From a virus, in the IMG/VR virus record IMGVR_UViG_3300035698_012251, positions 1 to 28,999 of that record: 28,999 nucleotides of DNA, one strand, 5' to 3'. This document shows positions 3,535-11,660 of the stretch, piece by piece; positions within the stretch are counted from its first letter, which is position 1, and every line of letters begins with the position of its first letter. The notes beneath the pieces are model-generated. The model saw only the letters and a program-made list of their open reading frames with translations, did no database searches and had not been told where the DNA came from. The position numbers were made by a program, and so were the translations under genes.

Positions 3535-3578
3535 CCTATGCGTCCAGCCGGAACCGCTCGGGGTCCGGCTTGAGGCAC
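3535..3578. repeat. 44-bp hairpin repeat, copy 1
   Basis: This 44-base sequence is identical to 8948-8991. It contains AGCCGGA and TCCGGCT arms that form a strong stem, and it has no U-tract. It begins at the stop codon of the 3856-3578 gene and sits just upstream of the ribosome site of the 47-residue gene. It is either a portable transcript-end or processing hairpin, or a relic of a duplicated coding 3' end (one frame reads LKPDPERFRLDA then stop). Confidence 0.85.
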
Positions 3579-3856
3579 TAGGATCTAGATCTCGTCGCCT
3601 GGCGATCGTCACGAAAGACCAGGGGACAACCGAATAATCGTTGGACTTCGCTAATCGCCTCGACCAATCCGCTGGCCTGGAGTCGGTTTATCTCCTCGTG
3701 CCAGATAGGCCACCCTTCCGTATGGCTCGGTGTAGGGGTGCAGATGCTATAACCGAAACACCCCCACCCGTGCCACGGGCCTATCTCAAGATACGCCCCG
3801 TTTGGTAGGTGCCCTTGCACCCTATCCGAGACCCCCATTCGCTCAAGTATTACCAT
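3578..3856 (-). CDS. hypothetical protein, 92 residues
   Basis: I prefer ATG 3856 because AAGGA lies about 8 bases upstream. A GTG at 3874 in the same frame has its only Shine-Dalgarno-like bases too close. The protein begins MVILERMGVSDRVQG and is rich in aromatic and glycine residues in the middle (LEIGPWHGWGCFGYS), with a helical C-terminal half and a basic end. I do not recognise a family. It follows the coiled-coil gene at 4462-3896 within the P2 transcript. The base sequence just before its start (GGAGGATGCCTGTCATAGGACAGTGCG) closely resembles that inside the 47-residue gene, so local duplication shaped this area. Confidence 0.7.
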   Translation of the reverse strand: MVILERMGVSDRVQGHLPNGAYLEIGPWHGWGCFGYSICTPTPSHTEGWPIWHEEINRLQASGLVEAISEVQRLFGCPLVFRDDRQATRSRS

Positions 3857-3895: not shown

Positions 3896-4462
3896 CTAAT
3901 CGGTTGCACTCGCAGTTCTGAGCGTCTGGGCCACGCGCAAGTAGTAATTCCGATACACGGGTTCGCGCTCCGATTCCTTTTCCCAGTCTACCGCCCGAGC
4001 TAGCAGGGCGGTGCGCGATCCGCGAAAGACCAGCACGGACGGGGGCGGGCTCGCGACGCTTGAACGATCCCATCGCTCCTCCCCTGCTGGAAATGCCCGG
4101 AACCCTGGCGTATGCGCAGGCCACGAATCCCATCTCCAGACTCCGACGACCAGGATCGCCCTATCCAATCGCTCCTGTCGCTCCTGCTCGTACGCACGAA
4201 CTCCTTCCGCGTGAGGGTCGCGCGGGACTTCGGCTCGTTGCAGTCTCACCAGTTCGGCATCGATTGCGTTTCCTGCGGCGAGCAGTTCGTCGGCCCGAAC
4301 TTCCATTTTGTCCATGATCGCGTAGGCCTTTTCCATCGCGACTTCTTGCGCATGACGCAGATTCCGAATGGCCGCAATATACTTGATCCGATCCTCCCGG
4401 AGGACCTTGATCTTGTTTGCGTTCTGGGCTTCCGTGGTCGCGTTCTCGTTCTGGTCTGACAT
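3896..4462 (-). CDS. coiled-coil hypothetical protein, paralogue of the 5046-4654 gene
   Basis: The 188-residue protein starts at ATG 4462 (MSDQNENATTEAQ) behind GAGGAG with 8 bases of spacing. The open frame extends further upstream but without a ribosome site. The first half is a long charged helix likely to form a coiled coil (RIKYIAAIRNLRHAQEVAMEKA and on), then a Trp/Pro-rich segment. The C-terminal part aligns by eye with the product of 5046-4654: V-x-x-F-x-G-S/T-R, then LL-x-x-A-x-x-W, then Y-x-x-R-V-A-x-T-x-R-x-A. The two are therefore likely paralogues. It is first in the P2 transcript, and its leader is a copy of the leader of the 5422-5117 gene. Function is unknown. Confidence 0.8.
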   Translation of the reverse strand: MSDQNENATTEAQNANKIKVLREDRIKYIAAIRNLRHAQEVAMEKAYAIMDKMEVRADELLAAGNAIDAELVRLQRAEVPRDPHAEGVRAYEQERQERLDRAILVVGVWRWDSWPAHTPGFRAFPAGEERWDRSSVASPPPSVLVFRGSRTALLARAVDWEKESEREPVYRNYYLRVAQTLRTASATD

Positions 4463-4646
4463 GGGATGTTCTCCTCGTTCATTTTTGGGCCGAGAGCCCT
4501 TATGGCCCCGCCCACTTTGCTTCAAGTTATCCCCGCCTCCGCCTCCCTCACTACGATCCAAGTATATCACGTCCAAGAGCAGAAGTCAAGACTTTTTTTG
4601 ATTATCTTTTCCGGGGGTTTTCTGTGGGTTTCGAGGGCTAGAATGG
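4455..4646. repeat. duplicated promoter-leader segment, copy A
   Basis: This segment and 5415-5616 are copies. They share the start codon region (TCTGACATGGGAT), the GAGGAG leader, a CCGCCTCCGCCTCC stretch, the promoter, and a 59-base block (4584-4642 and 5551-5609) that appears identical. The match continues into the TCCATTCTAG that forms the end of the helicase gene in copy B, so copy A contains a relic of that 3' end. Confidence 0.9.
4561..4589 (-). promoter_or_regulatory. sigma-70 promoter P2
   Basis: On the minus strand, TTGACT (4589-4584), a 17-base spacer and TATACT (4566-4561) lie about 100 bases upstream of the 4462 start. The upstream tract AAAAGATAATCAAAAAAAG resembles an UP element. 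It lies in the duplicated segment shared with P3. Confidence 0.9.
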
Positions 4647-4653
4647 ATACCCG

Positions 4654-5116: not shown

Positions 5117-5422
5117 CTACCACGCATTGATCCCCGCGGTCCGGCTTTCGCGCTCATGTGGGGGTATCGCAGAGCTTTCGACGATATCCAGGGCCTGATG
5201 CCGGATTCGTTCTCGGTCAGCCCAGAGCATAGCCTCCATATAGTGGCCACACAGATTGGTGATCGCGTGGTGTGCCTCCATCCGTCTGCCCGCGCAAGGG
5301 CCACAATACCAGTGCGTATACCGCGGATCAAGCGCCGGATGGGATGGGCCTTCGGGGTACCACCGGAAGCACATATCACACCGGATTCTCTGTCCTGCTG
5401 GTGTCTGCATCGTGTCTGACAT
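5117..5422 (-). CDS. small zinc-ribbon-like protein
   Basis: The 101-residue protein begins MSDTMQTPAGQRIRC at ATG 5422, with GAGGAG 8 bases upstream. It has two CxxC knuckles, C15-x2-C18 (CDMC) and C40-x2-C43 (CGPC), spaced as in a treble-clef or zinc-ribbon finger. A helical, His/Met/Arg-rich C-terminal half follows. Small proteins of this kind are common in phage early regions and may bind nucleic acid or a host protein, but nothing here fixes the target. It is the first gene of the P3 transcript, directly downstream of the helicase gene. Confidence 0.78.
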   Translation of the reverse strand: MSDTMQTPAGQRIRCDMCFRWYPEGPSHPALDPRYTHWYCGPCAGRRMEAHHAITNLCGHYMEAMLWADRERIRHQALDIVESSAIPPHERESRTAGINAW

Positions 5423-5616
5423 GGGATATTCTCCTCGTTCTTTTTTTGGGCCGAGCCCCTTATAGGCCCCGTCCGCGTTGCTTCAAGTTGTCCCCGCCTC
5501 CGCCTCCGCCTCCCTCACAACATCCGTATTGTACCACACCCGAGGGCAAAAGTCAAGACTTTTTTTGATTATCTTTTCCGGGGGTTTTCTGTGGGTTTCG
5601 AGGGCTAGACTAGAAT
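5415..5616. repeat. duplicated promoter-leader segment, copy B
   Basis: This is the counterpart of 4455-4646 and includes the last codons of the helicase gene, promoter P3 and the leader of the 5422-5117 gene. The stretch 5551-5609 appears identical to 4584-4642; the rest differs by substitutions and small indels, including a different number of CCGCCT units. Confidence 0.9.
5528..5556 (-). promoter_or_regulatory. sigma-70 promoter P3
   Basis: On the minus strand, TTGACT (5556-5551), a 17-base spacer and TACAAT (5533-5528) lie about 105 bases upstream of the 5422 start, with the same A-rich upstream tract as P2. Confidence 0.9.
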
Positions 5617-7037
5617 GGAATATCGTCGTCGTCAGGTTCAGGATCGGAAATGGAAGGACTCGGACTCGTCCGATCTAGATCCGAGGAATCCGAAGAGTCG
5701 GCAGCGAACCGAGAAAATCGTTGTGTAGCCTTATCATAGTACAGAAAGAATCGCCCTGTGGCCCCATTCCTGTGCTTGGCCAATGTGCAGTCAAGCACAT
5801 TGCTAGGATCGTGTCCGTTGGCCTCTATCCCATCAGCTACGTCTTTCGAAGGGTGCGACAGTATCAGAACTAGATCGGCATCCTGTTCTATGGCACCAGA
5901 TTCCCGCAAGTGGGCCATCTTGCGGAACCCGTCGGCTTCCGACTCCGCGGATCGCGCCAGCTGTGATAGTGCAATGATTGGACTGTCGATCTCCTTAGCT
6001 AGTGCCTTCAAGGCATGAGAGATCTCCCCCACTTGTACGTATCGTTGCTCCCGCCCCCCGAGTCCTGGCGGGGTAATCAACTGCAAATAGTCTACGATCA
6101 CAAGCCCCGATCCATGTTCAGCGGTAAACCGACGGATCTTTGATCGCAATCCGGGGACAGTCTGATACCCGGCGTCGTCGATTGTAATAGGTAAGCGTCC
6201 AAGCGAATCGGCCCCTCGCCGCAATGTTGCGGCCTCGTTTTTCCCGAGGGCACCCGTCCTAAGTTTTCCGGACGCAATCCCCGCGAACGAGCCCAACATC
6301 CGTTGAGTCAGTTGTGCGCGCGCCATTTCGAGAGATATATAGAAGACTGGCACACCACGTTTGCTCGCCACTAGTGCATTAGCCAACCCGAACGCTGTCT
6401 TCCCGACCGAGGGCCTCGCGGCCAAGATCACAAGATCCGTCTTCTGCCATCCGCCCGTCAGCCGATCTAGCGCCTCCACTCCCGCAGTAATCCCATTTGG
6501 CATAGACTCGCCCGATACTAGGCGTTCTATGTGCGTCATTGTAGGGCCAACCAGATCCCCTATCGATACCACTTCCCCCGTGTACATACTACGGGCCGCC
6601 GCGAAGGCCATGGAATCGGCCCGGGCGATCACTTCGTCCGTCTCAGTATCGCGATCGCCGGCCATCATGGCGACTTCCCTAGCTCCCTCCCTCAAGTCTC
6701 GACGCACCACAGCATCGCGTACTAACTCAGCGTACTGGGTCGCGTAGCAGGATAAGGGGGCTTCGACCAGCATTTCGCCGATGGTCAAGGTCTGATCGGG
6801 CACTAGATCGGTCACAGACACAGGATCGCACGTCTTGCCTCGACCGTAGAGGGCTAGAATAGCTCCCCAGACGGCCCGTGTCGAACTTTCGGCCATTACC
6901 TCGACCCTAGCCCCCAGAATGGCCACCACGTCGTCCACGACGCAAGGACGGGACAGTATGGCCCCTATTAGAGCCCGTTCAGTGGCGGATATGTCTCTTT
7001 CGTTCATCTGCGAGGGCTCCGAGCTACGTTTCGACAT
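5610..7037 (-). CDS. dnaB: DnaB-family replicative helicase with SSB-like C-terminal tip
   Basis: The 475-residue protein has the DnaB layout. An N-terminal helical domain (ERALIGAILSRP, residues 20-31) is followed by a RecA-like motor with Walker A ARPSVGKT (207-214), Walker B LVIVDYLQL (312-320), SQLAR (358-362) and the AKHRNGATG loop (420-428). It would unwind DNA 5'-3' as a hexamer at the phage replication fork. Residues 446-475 are unusual: a Ser/Asp/Pro-rich linker ends in EPDDDDIPF, matching the acidic protein-docking tip of bacterial SSB. ATG 7037 has a perfect AAGGAGG 9 bases upstream and overlaps the end of the preceding replication gene by 14 bases, consistent with helicase and loader being made together. 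Confidence 0.95.
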   Translation of the reverse strand: MSKRSSEPSQMNERDISATERALIGAILSRPCVVDDVVAILGARVEVMAESSTRAVWGAILALYGRGKTCDPVSVTDLVPDQTLTIGEMLVEAPLSCYATQYAELVRDAVVRRDLREGAREVAMMAGDRDTETDEVIARADSMAFAAARSMYTGEVVSIGDLVGPTMTHIERLVSGESMPNGITAGVEALDRLTGGWQKTDLVILAARPSVGKTAFGLANALVASKRGVPVFYISLEMARAQLTQRMLGSFAGIASGKLRTGALGKNEAATLRRGADSLGRLPITIDDAGYQTVPGLRSKIRRFTAEHGSGLVIVDYLQLITPPGLGGREQRYVQVGEISHALKALAKEIDSPIIALSQLARSAESEADGFRKMAHLRESGAIEQDADLVLILSHPSKDVADGIEANGHDPSNVLDCTLAKHRNGATGRFFLYYDKATQRFSRFAADSSDSSDLDRTSPSPSISDPEPDDDDIPF

Positions 7038-8031
7038 CTAGACCAGCCTCCTTGAGTAACCTCAGCCCCTCTGTGTCTGCAGGACATAAGTCCGACTTGG
7101 CGCCCGTCTTGACCGGTAGCTCATCATCCCACCGTCTACCGTTCAACCAGGTCGCCGGATGGGGGAAGAACTTGATCTCTGTGGGATATCCCTCACTGTC
7201 CTGCCAGGCTACCAGAGAAGCGACAATGCAGTGGGTCAAGTCTGCGTCGGGGAGACCTCCGTCAATCTGCCCCCACGCCTTGCGCGCCCGAACCTTGACC
7301 ACCTTGCGAGGATAGGCGGACCAGAACTCCTCGAATCGTTCGATGTCCTCAGCCGACCACGTCTTGATCCTACTCTTGGCCTGGGGCTTCTTTACCGGGG
7401 GATCATCGTGATCGCCTAGATCATCATGATCGCCAGGATCACCTGGATCACTGAGACCACCAGGATCACCAGGATCACCAAGATTACCAGGCCCCCTAGG
7501 GGATTGATCATCGGAAAAAAAGATCGTATTAAGATCTCCTATCCCCTCCTCTCCTCTCCTTGGTATGCCTGAGCTGTGATCGATCCGTGATCGATCCGTG
7601 CCTGAGCTGTGATCGATCCGTGATCGAGCTGCGCCAATAGTGTCAATCTCCCCCTGTACTGGAAGGATAGATTTGAACTCCCCATCGGCGCCAGTAAAGC
7701 CCTTTGGGGAGGTAACCGGTAAGGGGTATTCGTAGTACGGTCGATGTGTCTTCTGGTCGCGCTCAAAGTCGACTAGTGCGAGGTATTCCTCCCCGTTATC
7801 GGTCTGATATCGGAAGACCTGGCCGAGTCTCACCATTTCGTCTAGTAGGAGGTAGATATCTAAATCGTCCAGTGGGCACAGTGTGATCTTGATGTGGAGC
7901 GGATCATACGGTAGGATCCCGTGGTCGTCAGCTAGATTCCTCATGCCAAGCGATAAGAGCCGCGCCGGAACAGACATCTGGACCCATGGGACACGGGTCC
8001 ACTGCTCTGGTCGTATGCTACGTATACGCAC
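7024..8031 (-). CDS. replication initiator or helicase-loader type protein
   Basis: I choose GTG 8031 (RIRSIRPEQWTRVPWVQ...), which has AGGAG 10 bases upstream and starts just after the stop of the preceding gene, giving 335 residues. The N-terminal domain (LLSLGMRNLADDHGILPYDPLHIK, then DEMVRLGQVFRYQ) is a winged-helix type found in phage replication proteins. A low-complexity middle has RSRIDHSSG twice and a GDPGDPGG-like Gly-Asp region. The C-terminal domain has FEEFWSAYPRKVVKVRARKAW and HPATWLNGRRWDDE, typical of phage replisome organiser and DnaT/DnaD-like proteins that load the helicase. The adjacent DnaB gene supports this. The middle DNA forms a GATC-rich array like the lambda O gene origin arrangement. 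Confidence 0.85.
   Translation of the reverse strand: MRIRSIRPEQWTRVPWVQMSVPARLLSLGMRNLADDHGILPYDPLHIKITLCPLDDLDIYLLLDEMVRLGQVFRYQTDNGEEYLALVDFERDQKTHRPYYEYPLPVTSPKGFTGADGEFKSILPVQGEIDTIGAARSRIDHSSGTDRSRIDHSSGIPRRGEEGIGDLNTIFFSDDQSPRGPGNLGDPGDPGGLSDPGDPGDHDDLGDHDDPPVKKPQAKSRIKTWSAEDIERFEEFWSAYPRKVVKVRARKAWGQIDGGLPDADLTHCIVASLVAWQDSEGYPTEIKFFPHPATWLNGRRWDDELPVKTGAKSDLCPADTEGLRLLKEAGLDVET
7401..7625. other. candidate replication origin: GATC-rich iteron-like array
   Basis: Eighteen GATC sites occur in 225 bp. Eight lie in strict 9-bp phase (7401, 7410, 7419, 7428, 7437, 7446, 7464, 7473). A second cluster, 7578-7625, is formed by two adjacent 33-bp near-repeats (7568-7600 and 7601-7633), each with GATCGATCCGT units. 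Between them lies an A/T-rich patch (7513-7533). Direct repeats plus an AT-rich patch within an initiator gene are the arrangement of the lambda origin. The 9-bp phase also encodes Gly-Asp-x repeats, so a coding explanation is possible. Confidence 0.5.
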
Positions 8032-8033
8032 TA

Positions 8034-8348
8034 CTACTTCTCTCCTACAGTGGTTGGGTGTGTGTTTCCTTTGAGGCGACGAATCCGGTAGCACCAGAAT
8101 CCACGCGGGGGATCTGATCGTGTGGTGAGGGGGGATCCTAGTGCAACAGACCACGCCTTATCCAGGACGAACCTCCGCCGCAGAAACGGGAGCTGGGCGC
8201 GGACCTCAGCTAGGCGCGTTGCCGGACAAGTGGTGTTCAGCATTCGCGCGATCTGGCGCGTGGTGATCCACGTCCGGGGATTCGCGCGGAACCATGCATA
8301 GAGTACCCCCGCGCATGTGCTACGTTTATAGATGCTTCCATGATGCAT
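8034..8348 (-). CDS. winged-helix-like DNA-binding protein
   Basis: The 104-residue protein starts at ATG 8348 (MHHGSIYKRSTCAGVLYAW) with AGGGAGG 7 bases upstream. Residues 25-55 (NPRTWITTRQIARMLNTTCPATRLAEVRAQL) fit a helix-turn-helix of the type that recognises DNA in small phage regulators, followed by a basic strand region ending FWCYRIRRLKGN, which could be the wing. It stops 3 bases before the initiator gene start, so the two are co-translated. It is probably a regulator or replication accessory protein. I infer the fold from the pattern only. Confidence 0.72.
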   Translation of the reverse strand: MHHGSIYKRSTCAGVLYAWFRANPRTWITTRQIARMLNTTCPATRLAEVRAQLPFLRRRFVLDKAWSVALGSPLTTRSDPPRGFWCYRIRRLKGNTHPTTVGEK

Positions 8349-8907: not shown

Positions 8908-9096
8908 GTACTGTACTCCTCTTGTAGGTATCCTGTTGTTCTGGCTGCCTATGCGTCCAGCCGGAACCGCTCGGGGTCCGGCTTGAGGCACCAGGCTATG
9001 CGGTATGGAAATGCTCGATGCGGACCGAACCATCGGGCCAAATGCTCTCGACAAGTGTCCCGGTCCCCTTGCCTGGTCTCGTTTCAACTTGCCCCC
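8908..9096 (-). promoter_or_regulatory. long leader of the regulator operon
   Basis: From the likely start site of P4 (about 9090) to the regulator ATG is roughly 180 bases. It contains the second copy of the 44-bp hairpin repeat (8991-8948). Several short frames cross it without a ribosome site; one ends SIWPDGSVRIEHFHTA and then a TAG just before the repeat, which could be a decayed or leader peptide. Such a long structured leader could be a control point. Confidence 0.4.
8948..8991. repeat. 44-bp hairpin repeat, copy 2
   Basis: This is identical to 3535-3578 and lies in the leader of the regulator gene, upstream of its ribosome site. AGCCGGA and TCCGGCT arms form the stem. As in copy 1, a TAG stop codon precedes it on the minus strand. 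Confidence 0.85.
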
Positions 9097-9501: not shown

Positions 9502-10464
9502 CTAGGTTGTTTCCCGATCTATTTCAACGCCTTGGTTCTCTAACTGTTCAAGGACCCACCATACCACACCCGCCTCCGTGTGGAACCTTGAGTCATTGTG
9601 TGCGACCTCGATGGCCTCATCGCCCACGTCAGCAGGTAGGGGGACTTGGGTCCAGGGGGCTCCGTAGGATCCGTGTGGCAGGTAGACCCTCAAGACTCGC
9701 CGCATGCCGGCGCTCAATCCCTCAAGTAGTGCAAACGATATCCTACGTTGTGCATCAGGGTGACACAGGGCGAAATATAGCTCATCTAGATCAAGAGGTT
9801 CGTCCGGCATCTTAAGGGTGATGACATCCGCATAACCAACCGAAGTCTGGCAAGCCTTGCGCTGGCGACTTCTTGCGACATTACAGGTCGAAAACGAAAC
9901 GAGGATCTCAACGCGAAATCCTGCCGACTCAAGTGCGTCACATAGTACAGCCACCGCGGCCCCTCGCCGATGGTATTCGACCGGCAGCCAGTCGAATGTC
10001 GCAGATCCGTGTAATGCTACAGTGATGACCTTCCCGCGTTTGGCCTGGAGTGTCGCGCGAAATCCTCGCATACAATCCGGGCGCCCTTGCAGATACCGGC
10101 CGATGTTTACCCCAGCCCCAGCGACCGTCCAGTGTCCAGTTTGCCTGTAGTCCCTTGGGGCCCCCTTGACGGCCGCCAGGACTCTCTGGCGCAAGGGCTC
10201 GACGATGGCCCTGCCTTCCGGCCATCCGTCCTTGGCGAGCTTCAGGGCTTCGGCATATGTGCCCGTTCCCCAGAACTTCGAGTTAGCCTGTATCCTCACT
10301 ACCCTCGTAGAAGCCTGGCCTCCTAGTTTGGGGTCCGTGGCCTCCGGACTGTCAACGGCGACTTGTGACGCGCCCACGAAGTCCAGCCAAGAAGGATAAT
10401 CCCGAACTAGCCGTCCTGTCACCAGACCGTTGTCGGTCTTGAGCGTGTTGATCCGTTCGTTCAT
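9502..10464 (-). CDS. probable partner protein of the MoxR-like ATPase
   Basis: The 320-residue product begins MNERINTLKTDNGLV, with GGGGAG 10 bases upstream, only 4 bases after the ATPase gene. The first 60 residues form a variable region; a PRDYRQTGHWTVAGAGVNIGRYLQGRPDCM segment follows. The central part (146-190) is strand-helix-strand: VITVALHGS, a RRGAAVAVLCDALESAGF helix, then RVEILVSF. This is the topology of the first half of a von Willebrand A or similar Rossmann fold, but the DxSxS metal motif is absent. MoxR ATPases usually pair with VWA proteins, so I infer that this is a degenerate or analogous partner. The pairing recurs, as I recall, in other phages, with no known role. Confidence 0.7.
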   Translation of the reverse strand: MNERINTLKTDNGLVTGRLVRDYPSWLDFVGASQVAVDSPEATDPKLGGQASTRVVRIQANSKFWGTGTYAEALKLAKDGWPEGRAIVEPLRQRVLAAVKGAPRDYRQTGHWTVAGAGVNIGRYLQGRPDCMRGFRATLQAKRGKVITVALHGSATFDWLPVEYHRRGAAVAVLCDALESAGFRVEILVSFSTCNVARSRQRKACQTSVGYADVITLKMPDEPLDLDELYFALCHPDAQRRISFALLEGLSAGMRRVLRVYLPHGSYGAPWTQVPLPADVGDEAIEVAHNDSRFHTEAGVVWWVLEQLENQGVEIDRETT

Positions 10465-10468
10465 GACC

Positions 10469-11596
10469 CTAGTTCTCCCCGTCTGTTCTGATAGCTGCCT
10501 TCACGCGGCGTTCGACGTCTTGCGACATCCGAGACCAGATCAATCCCTGCTCAACCCACTTGCGGGCTACACCTGCCTCTAATACCTGCCATCCGATAAT
10601 GGTTGCCCGAGGACTGATGATGATCCGCGCGTCTAGACTGGCGATGATCTTCCGAACCCTCAAGACTAGTCCAAGCCATTCTTGGGGCGTGGTCTGATTC
10701 CCGCGGGCAGGTAAGGGATTGATCTTCAGGGGCTCGGGACAACGCGCGCCGATCAAGGCTGCCTCCAGACTGGGATCATAGGGAAAATCGAGCAAGTAGA
10801 ATCGGTCGACCGTCGCCGCGTCGAGTTGGACGCGTCCGACATATTGGCGGTTGGCCCCCTGTAGTGCTGTATTGGCACTGCCGATGAAGCGGAAGTCCGG
10901 ATGCCGTGGGACTTCACGATCTGGGAATGCGCAGTGCTCGTTAGCTAGGGCACTGTTCAGGGCCACCATAACCTCCGCGGGTCCTGCGTCCAGCTCATCG
11001 AGCAAGAACACGCCACCGGATTCCCAGCACTTCCGGAAGCTAGTCGACACATACTGCCCCTGTGCGTCCATGTAACCCACCAGGGCGACTTCGGTCGATT
11101 GGATGCACAGGGACTGCTGGCCGAAATCGAGCCCTAGGGCTCGGGCCACGGAACGGGCAATGTGGCTCTTGCCGCTACCTGCGGGGCCTACTAGACAGGT
11201 TGTGATATTGGCTTCCATCAGGCGCAGGACCAGCGGAAAATAGGCGTGTTGCAATCCTAGCTCAACCTCTGGAACCTTGGGATCCCGCCTACGGATCGTG
11301 ATGGTCGCCGCCGACGGTCCGACCGGATCGATCTTCTGTGCCGCCAGGGCCGCCAGGGCCTCCTGTCGGGCAATCTTGCGGATGCTCGCCAGATCAAGAT
11401 CCGTTGTCCCCTTGTCACCTTCCCCCCCGCCGTCTTTTTCGATTATGATGGTATCACGGGGGACGATCGCCCCGTCCGATTCGAGGAACCGATCTAGATC
11501 CGCCTGTGAGGCTGCTGCAACCCACGTTCGCCGGATGTGCAAGTCCTTGCACATTTCCCGCACCCTTGCCCGTTTCTCTTGGCCCAAAGTCCGCAT
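10469..11596 (-). CDS. MoxR/CbbQ-type AAA+ ATPase
   Basis: I choose ATG 11596 (MRTLGQEKRARVREMCKDL), which has AGGAG 10 bases upstream. A TTG 48 bases earlier lacks a ribosome site. The 375-residue protein has an N-terminal basic helix and acidic Gly-rich linker, then an AAA+ core: Walker A GPAGSGKS (137-144), Walker B FLLDELD (197-203), sensor-1-type FIGSANT (237-243) and a DAATVDRF arginine-finger region (259-266). This is the layout of MoxR/CbbQ ATPases, which use ATP to remodel or insert metal into partner protein complexes. The downstream gene is the likely partner. In a phage it could act in assembly, host takeover or defence avoidance; the sequence does not decide. Confidence 0.9.
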   Translation of the reverse strand: MRTLGQEKRARVREMCKDLHIRRTWVAAASQADLDRFLESDGAIVPRDTIIIEKDGGGEGDKGTTDLDLASIRKIARQEALAALAAQKIDPVGPSAATITIRRRDPKVPEVELGLQHAYFPLVLRLMEANITTCLVGPAGSGKSHIARSVARALGLDFGQQSLCIQSTEVALVGYMDAQGQYVSTSFRKCWESGGVFLLDELDAGPAEVMVALNSALANEHCAFPDREVPRHPDFRFIGSANTALQGANRQYVGRVQLDAATVDRFYLLDFPYDPSLEAALIGARCPEPLKINPLPARGNQTTPQEWLGLVLRVRKIIASLDARIIISPRATIIGWQVLEAGVARKWVEQGLIWSRMSQDVERRVKAAIRTDGEN

Positions 11597-11660
11597 TAGA
11601 TTCGCTCTCCTGTGATTAGGATCTAGCCAGCCCCAAGTGGACAAAATGCCGTGTTGTTGT

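Follow-up and report, generated by a model that had tools for sequence, protein, structure and literature searches.

An SSB-like DDDIPF tip on a phage DnaB-type helicase, and its counterparts on viral and Bacteroidota replicative helicases

Bacterial single-strand-binding protein (SSB) ends in a short acidic tip, SSB-Ct, which in Escherichia coli is the hexapeptide DDDIPF (PMC5872125). Proteins that interact with SSB accept the Phe in a pocket, and contact its carboxylate with a basic lip and the Asp residues with a basic ridge. RecG, for example, binds the SSB-Ct peptide on its own no less well than the whole protein, and the binding weakens when the Phe is removed or the Pro replaced by Ser (PMC10164576). 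Recognition needs the terminal peptide alone, and a peptide moved to another protein should therefore carry the binding along. A tail of a related kind is known from phage T7, where the helicase gp4 ends in NDTDF and the SSB gp2.5 in DEDGDF; the gp4 tails bind the gp5 polymerase, and when 17 residues are removed processivity drops from 17 kb to some 5 kb (PMC12593628). Here we describe a DnaB-like replicative helicase that ends in exactly the E. coli hexapeptide. Its gene lies in a 28,999-bp stretch of viral DNA (the window), which is the entire IMG/VR record IMGVR_UViG_3300035698_012251, a linear fragment whose left end is cut inside a gene.

The helicase gene (5610..7037, minus strand) encodes 475 residues. 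The product matches phrog_19 (3e-84, 285 bits), PF03796 (3.6e-72, 243 bits) and PF00772 (1.1e-7, 32 bits), and has both the DnaB N-terminal domain (residues 19-108, 6714..6983, minus strand) and the RecA-like DnaB_C helicase domain (residues 182-442, 5712..6494, minus strand) that define a DnaB-type helicase. The latter holds the core motifs common to all relatives; the Walker A GKT, DYLQL, LRESG.IEQ.AD and K.RNG residues stand at invariant or nearly invariant alignment columns. The nearest solved chains are bacterial replicative helicases, e.g. 2r6a, and the protein matches helicase and ATPase families only, with no SSB family among them. Hexameric 5'-3' unwinding is predicted from this family membership.

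The C-terminus reads ...RFAADSSDSSDLDRTSPSPSISDPEPDDDDIPF*, with GAC GAC GAC GAT ATT CCA TTC TAG as the final codons, and the 475-residue product ends DSSDSSDLDRTSPSPSISDPEPDDDDIPF. An original prediction, made by a model from the letters of the window, had described a Ser/Asp-rich linker followed by DPEPDDDDIPF, and the minus-strand translation confirms this tail and its coordinates (the acidic end lies at 5613..5645, minus strand). Residues 470-475 (5613..5630, minus strand) are identical to the E. coli SSB-Ct hexapeptide, and have its terminal acidic residues followed by I/L/V-P-F-COOH. They also give the protein what characterizes T7 gp4, an acidic tail with a terminal Phe on a ring helicase. 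In an AlphaFold2 monomer model the mean predicted local distance difference test (pLDDT) score is 82, with most of the core between 70 and 95, and the Ser/Asp/Pro-rich residues 448-475 (5613..5696, minus strand) fall below 50. The last 28 residues are thus predicted to be disordered, as would suit a free linker with an exposed tip.

Tips of this kind recur among viral helicases. The first relatives that we fetched end in DSIPF, HDEVPF, LDDTPF and NDIPF. One pattern of that search lay inside the tail, and the scan was repeated with core motifs only, blind to the tail. Counting as a tip a terminal Pro-Phe where one or more of the last ten residues are acidic, 17 of the 67 non-redundant viral DnaB relatives from the tail-blind scan carry one. 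For all viral DnaBs the figure is 28 of 91, where shuffling the last 25 residues yields 0.4 on average and never more than 3. Of the 1997 other genes on the contigs of these viruses, just 14 fit a strict tip pattern. The DDDIPF tail is more than chance. Of the tip-bearing other genes that were examined, three match families of SSB or of single-strand-binding proteins (PF00436 or DUF3127/phrog_4932); the others are unassigned.

The DUF3127/phrog_4932 proteins end in DDLPF tips (L067:7849-8196 and L003:6650-7060), and the DnaBs of those phages are tipped as well. A further protein, unassigned, of 82 residues and ending in VEDDLPF, is encoded upstream of a tipless DnaB at two loci (L013, 2338-2586; L015, 1553-1801) and upstream of a DnaB fragment at a third (L017, 2436-2684). 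Perhaps the tip sits here on this neighbour instead of on DnaB. A Pro-Phe tip is absent from all 16 DnaBs drawn from the phage collection (that of Riemerella phage CRP6 ends in KDAF), and we rejected the idea that the tip is a general trait of phage DnaBs.

The trait is also found on bacterial chromosomes. We sampled 30 chromosomal helicases from each of three phyla, with phylum labels taken from the titles of the seed genomes (e.g. Flavobacteriaceae, L121) and from grouping. Among Bacteroidota DnaBs 27/30 end in PF, and in 23/30 the final ten residues include acidic ones, compared with tips in 2/30 Planctomycetota and 0/30 Bacillota. Two Planctomycetota DnaBs have an acidic tip with Trp in place of Phe, ending in EADDDTPPW (L227) and EPDDDTPPW (L228). 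In the non-redundant Bacteroidota set, Pro occupies position -2 in 20/22 sequences (entropy 0.4 bits) and Phe position -1 in 21/22 (0.3 bits); acidic residues make up 50-68% at positions -4 to -6, and the entropy in the linker is about 3 bits per position. A near-fixed Pro-Phe behind a variable linker is what one would expect of a peptide under selection for docking, borne by a linker that is free to change. No published description of an SSB-like tip on DnaB was found in the open-access literature that we searched, and we regard its near-fixation in the sampled Bacteroidota, together with its recurrence in phages, as a more interesting result than the single case in the window.

These counts contradict the remark in the original prediction that such a tip is not known as usual on a DnaB-type helicase: it is present on about a quarter of the related uncultivated-phage DnaBs and on most Bacteroidota DnaBs sampled, with T7 gp4 as a precedent. 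For the same reason the tip cannot be a trait unique to the phage in the window. Does the tip stand in for a missing SSB? We rejected this too. A tip-bearing gene other than that of the helicase, in some cases SSB-like, is present at 6 of 21 loci with a helicase tip versus 10 of 55 without. Furthermore, a tipped SSB is retained in each of the ten Bacteroidota genomes checked, so that the helicase tip is there an addition to that of SSB and no substitute for it. It had also been remarked that no SSB gene is seen in the window. No PF00436 (SSB OB-fold) match occurs anywhere in the 28,999-bp record, although for a fragment cut at its left end this is uninformative about the complete phage. The proposal that the helicase mimics SSB survives as a hypothesis, and is the best reading of the tip, but the arguments drawn from its being unusual and from the absence of SSB both fail.

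The trait has changed state repeatedly. On a FastTree phylogeny of 220 rows, built with the tails left out, parsimony requires at least 23 changes of tip state. The window helicase groups, with modest support and on a long end branch, with three tipless helicases (L019, L072 and L094), and apart from the clade in which Bacteroidota stand together with many tip-bearing phages. Simple inheritance from a Bacteroidota helicase is not supported by this tree. Since the window helicase lies outside the Bacteroidota clade and has tipless neighbours, the simplest interpretation of the placement is that its tip was probably gained separately.

What might the tip do? With moderate confidence, we propose that the tail, present six times per ring, works in the manner of SSB-Ct and keeps host proteins that bind SSB docked at the fork. 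In the assembled hexamer, six tips would project from the C-terminal (motor) tier, forming a docking platform like that of the SSB tips. The terminal Phe would enter a hydrophobic pocket on the partner, its carboxylate would rest on the basic lip and the Asp run on the basic ridge. Host SSB-interacting replication proteins could in this way be kept at the phage fork without a prior search for SSB-coated DNA. The partner is probably a host protein, since the window genes examined include none recognised as coding for a primase or polymerase. DnaG primase is our best single guess, as DnaB and SSB-Ct are both ligands of its C-terminal domain (PMC5872125); other candidates are PriA, RecO, RecG, the clamp loader, polymerase and, as the original prediction had also named, a nuclease. 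More tentatively, and with slightly less than even confidence, we suggest that the fork has a second SSB-Ct hub, carried by replicative DnaBs, which is fixed in most Bacteroidota beside a tipped SSB and has been gained repeatedly by phages, so that SSB partners are recruited from the ring as well as from SSB-coated DNA.

Several points weigh against the docking proposal. Docking by helicase tails is a prediction from sequence likeness. Most characterised phages manage without a tip, as the phage collection illustrates, and the nearest neighbours in the tree, weakly placed as they are, are tipless, so that conservation within the helicase's own lineage is not evident. DnaB also binds DnaG directly, which would make a second tether redundant unless it altered affinity or exchange.

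The alternative that survives best, though we think it unlikely, is a coupling like that of T7, in which acidic Phe-ended tails hold either the host's Pol III or a phage DNA polymerase encoded beyond the fragment at the fork by electrostatics, with no SSB-Ct pocket. The gp4 tails bind basic patches of gp5, with the polymerase facing the C-terminal tier of the helicase (PMC12593628), and the gp4 and gp2.5 tails look alike. However, the window tip reproduces the SSB hexapeptide letter for letter and, unlike NDTDF, has the Pro at -2 that SSB has. The fixation of Pro-Phe in Bacteroidota suggests a pocket over charge alone, and no polymerase is recognised in the window genes that were examined. We hold it to be rather improbable that the tip docks on the helicase itself, filling the DNA channel or a neighbouring subunit when DNA is absent and so regulating loading, much as the SSB tip can lie on its own OB fold. 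The tail is indeed long and acidic. That said, AlphaFold2 gives it no confident placement, although a monomer model is a weak test, and self-docking would leave unexplained why Bacteroidota fix Pro-Phe while their acidic content varies.

We give very little weight to the tip being a decoy that titrates host SSB-binding repair or defence proteins off host SSB. Any SSB-Ct-like peptide could compete for such pockets, given their features (PMC10164576). However, the same kind of tip is borne by the Bacteroidota's own chromosomal helicase, where a decoy role would be senseless. Moreover, the helicase is made in few copies relative to SSB. Finally, a disordered acidic tail that ends in DDDIPF by accident, or through a frameshift or sequencing error, is highly improbable: the window tail is known from a single contig, and the gene end adjoins a duplicated intergenic segment that takes in the last codons CCATTCTAG, but such tips are rare both after tail shuffling and among other genes on the same loci, and the recurrence of like tips in about a quarter of viral relatives makes an error unlikely.

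If helicase tips do dock SSB partners, many phages, and bacteria across most of one phylum, would recruit primase, polymerase or repair proteins via the helicase, and priming, restart and polymerase exchange in them would need rethinking. Models of the replisome are built largely on E. coli, B. subtilis and T7, and the sampled Bacillota helicases are tipless.

The helicase gene lies in the replication region of the window. Directly upstream, and overlapping the helicase start by 14 bases, lies a replication-initiation gene (7024..8154, minus strand; phrog_16167, phrog_9474 and phrog_270), whose product is a probable initiator or helicase loader. This gene holds 9-bp and 11-bp tandem repeats (7400-7498 and 7555-7631), which could be iterons of a phage origin sited within the initiator gene, by analogy with lambda O. 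Further along from it are RecE/YqaJ and RecT genes, recognised by PHROGs and Pfam matches, and upstream of the replication genes a MoxR-like AAA ATPase (phrog_249, PF07728) stands beside a DUF7192 protein (10469-11644 and 9502-10464). A 48-nt direct repeat, 98% identical, is found on either side of the replication region (3535-3582 and 8948-8995). Furthermore, an intergenic segment of about 200 bp is present in two copies, 80-86% identical (4454-4647 and 5414-5614), and in each a sigma-70-like promoter (TTGACT-17-TATACT/TACAAT) is accompanied by the first part of a small open reading frame beginning MSD; the copy on the helicase side extends to the last helicase codons noted above and the stop.

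A third copy of the promoter lies at 9125-9097, so the window has three near-identical sigma-70-type promoters. Promoters known for Bacteroidota do not resemble these, and the host is therefore probably not a member of the Bacteroidota. The best matches of the neighbouring genes are about 30-35% identical and scattered over phages of many host phyla, and point to no one host.

How, then, does this helicase compare with known systems? It shares with the phage DnaB-like helicases of PHROG 19 its family membership and an initiator or loader gene nearby, and differs in its tip, as about three quarters of the sampled relatives and all those from the phage collection have no Pro-Phe end. The chromosomal DnaB of Bacteroidota is like it in being a DnaB with a variable linker and, in the 23 acidic cases, an acidic ..PF end, although the window helicase falls, with weak support, outside both the Bacteroidota and the Bacteroidota-like phage clades. 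T7 gp4 likewise is a RecA-like ring helicase with an acidic Phe-ended tail, and this tail resembles that of its own phage's SSB. Unlike the window helicase, gp4 is a primase fusion and not a DnaB orthologue, and its NDTDF docks on the basic patches of gp5. The T7 tails have no I/L/V-Pro-Phe core, so in sequence the tip of the window helicase lies nearer to bacterial SSB. The carrier differs from SSB, being a DnaB-type helicase with no SSB-family match for which docking is a prediction, but it shares with E. coli SSB the identical last six residues, a flexible linker and an oligomeric body that presents several tips.
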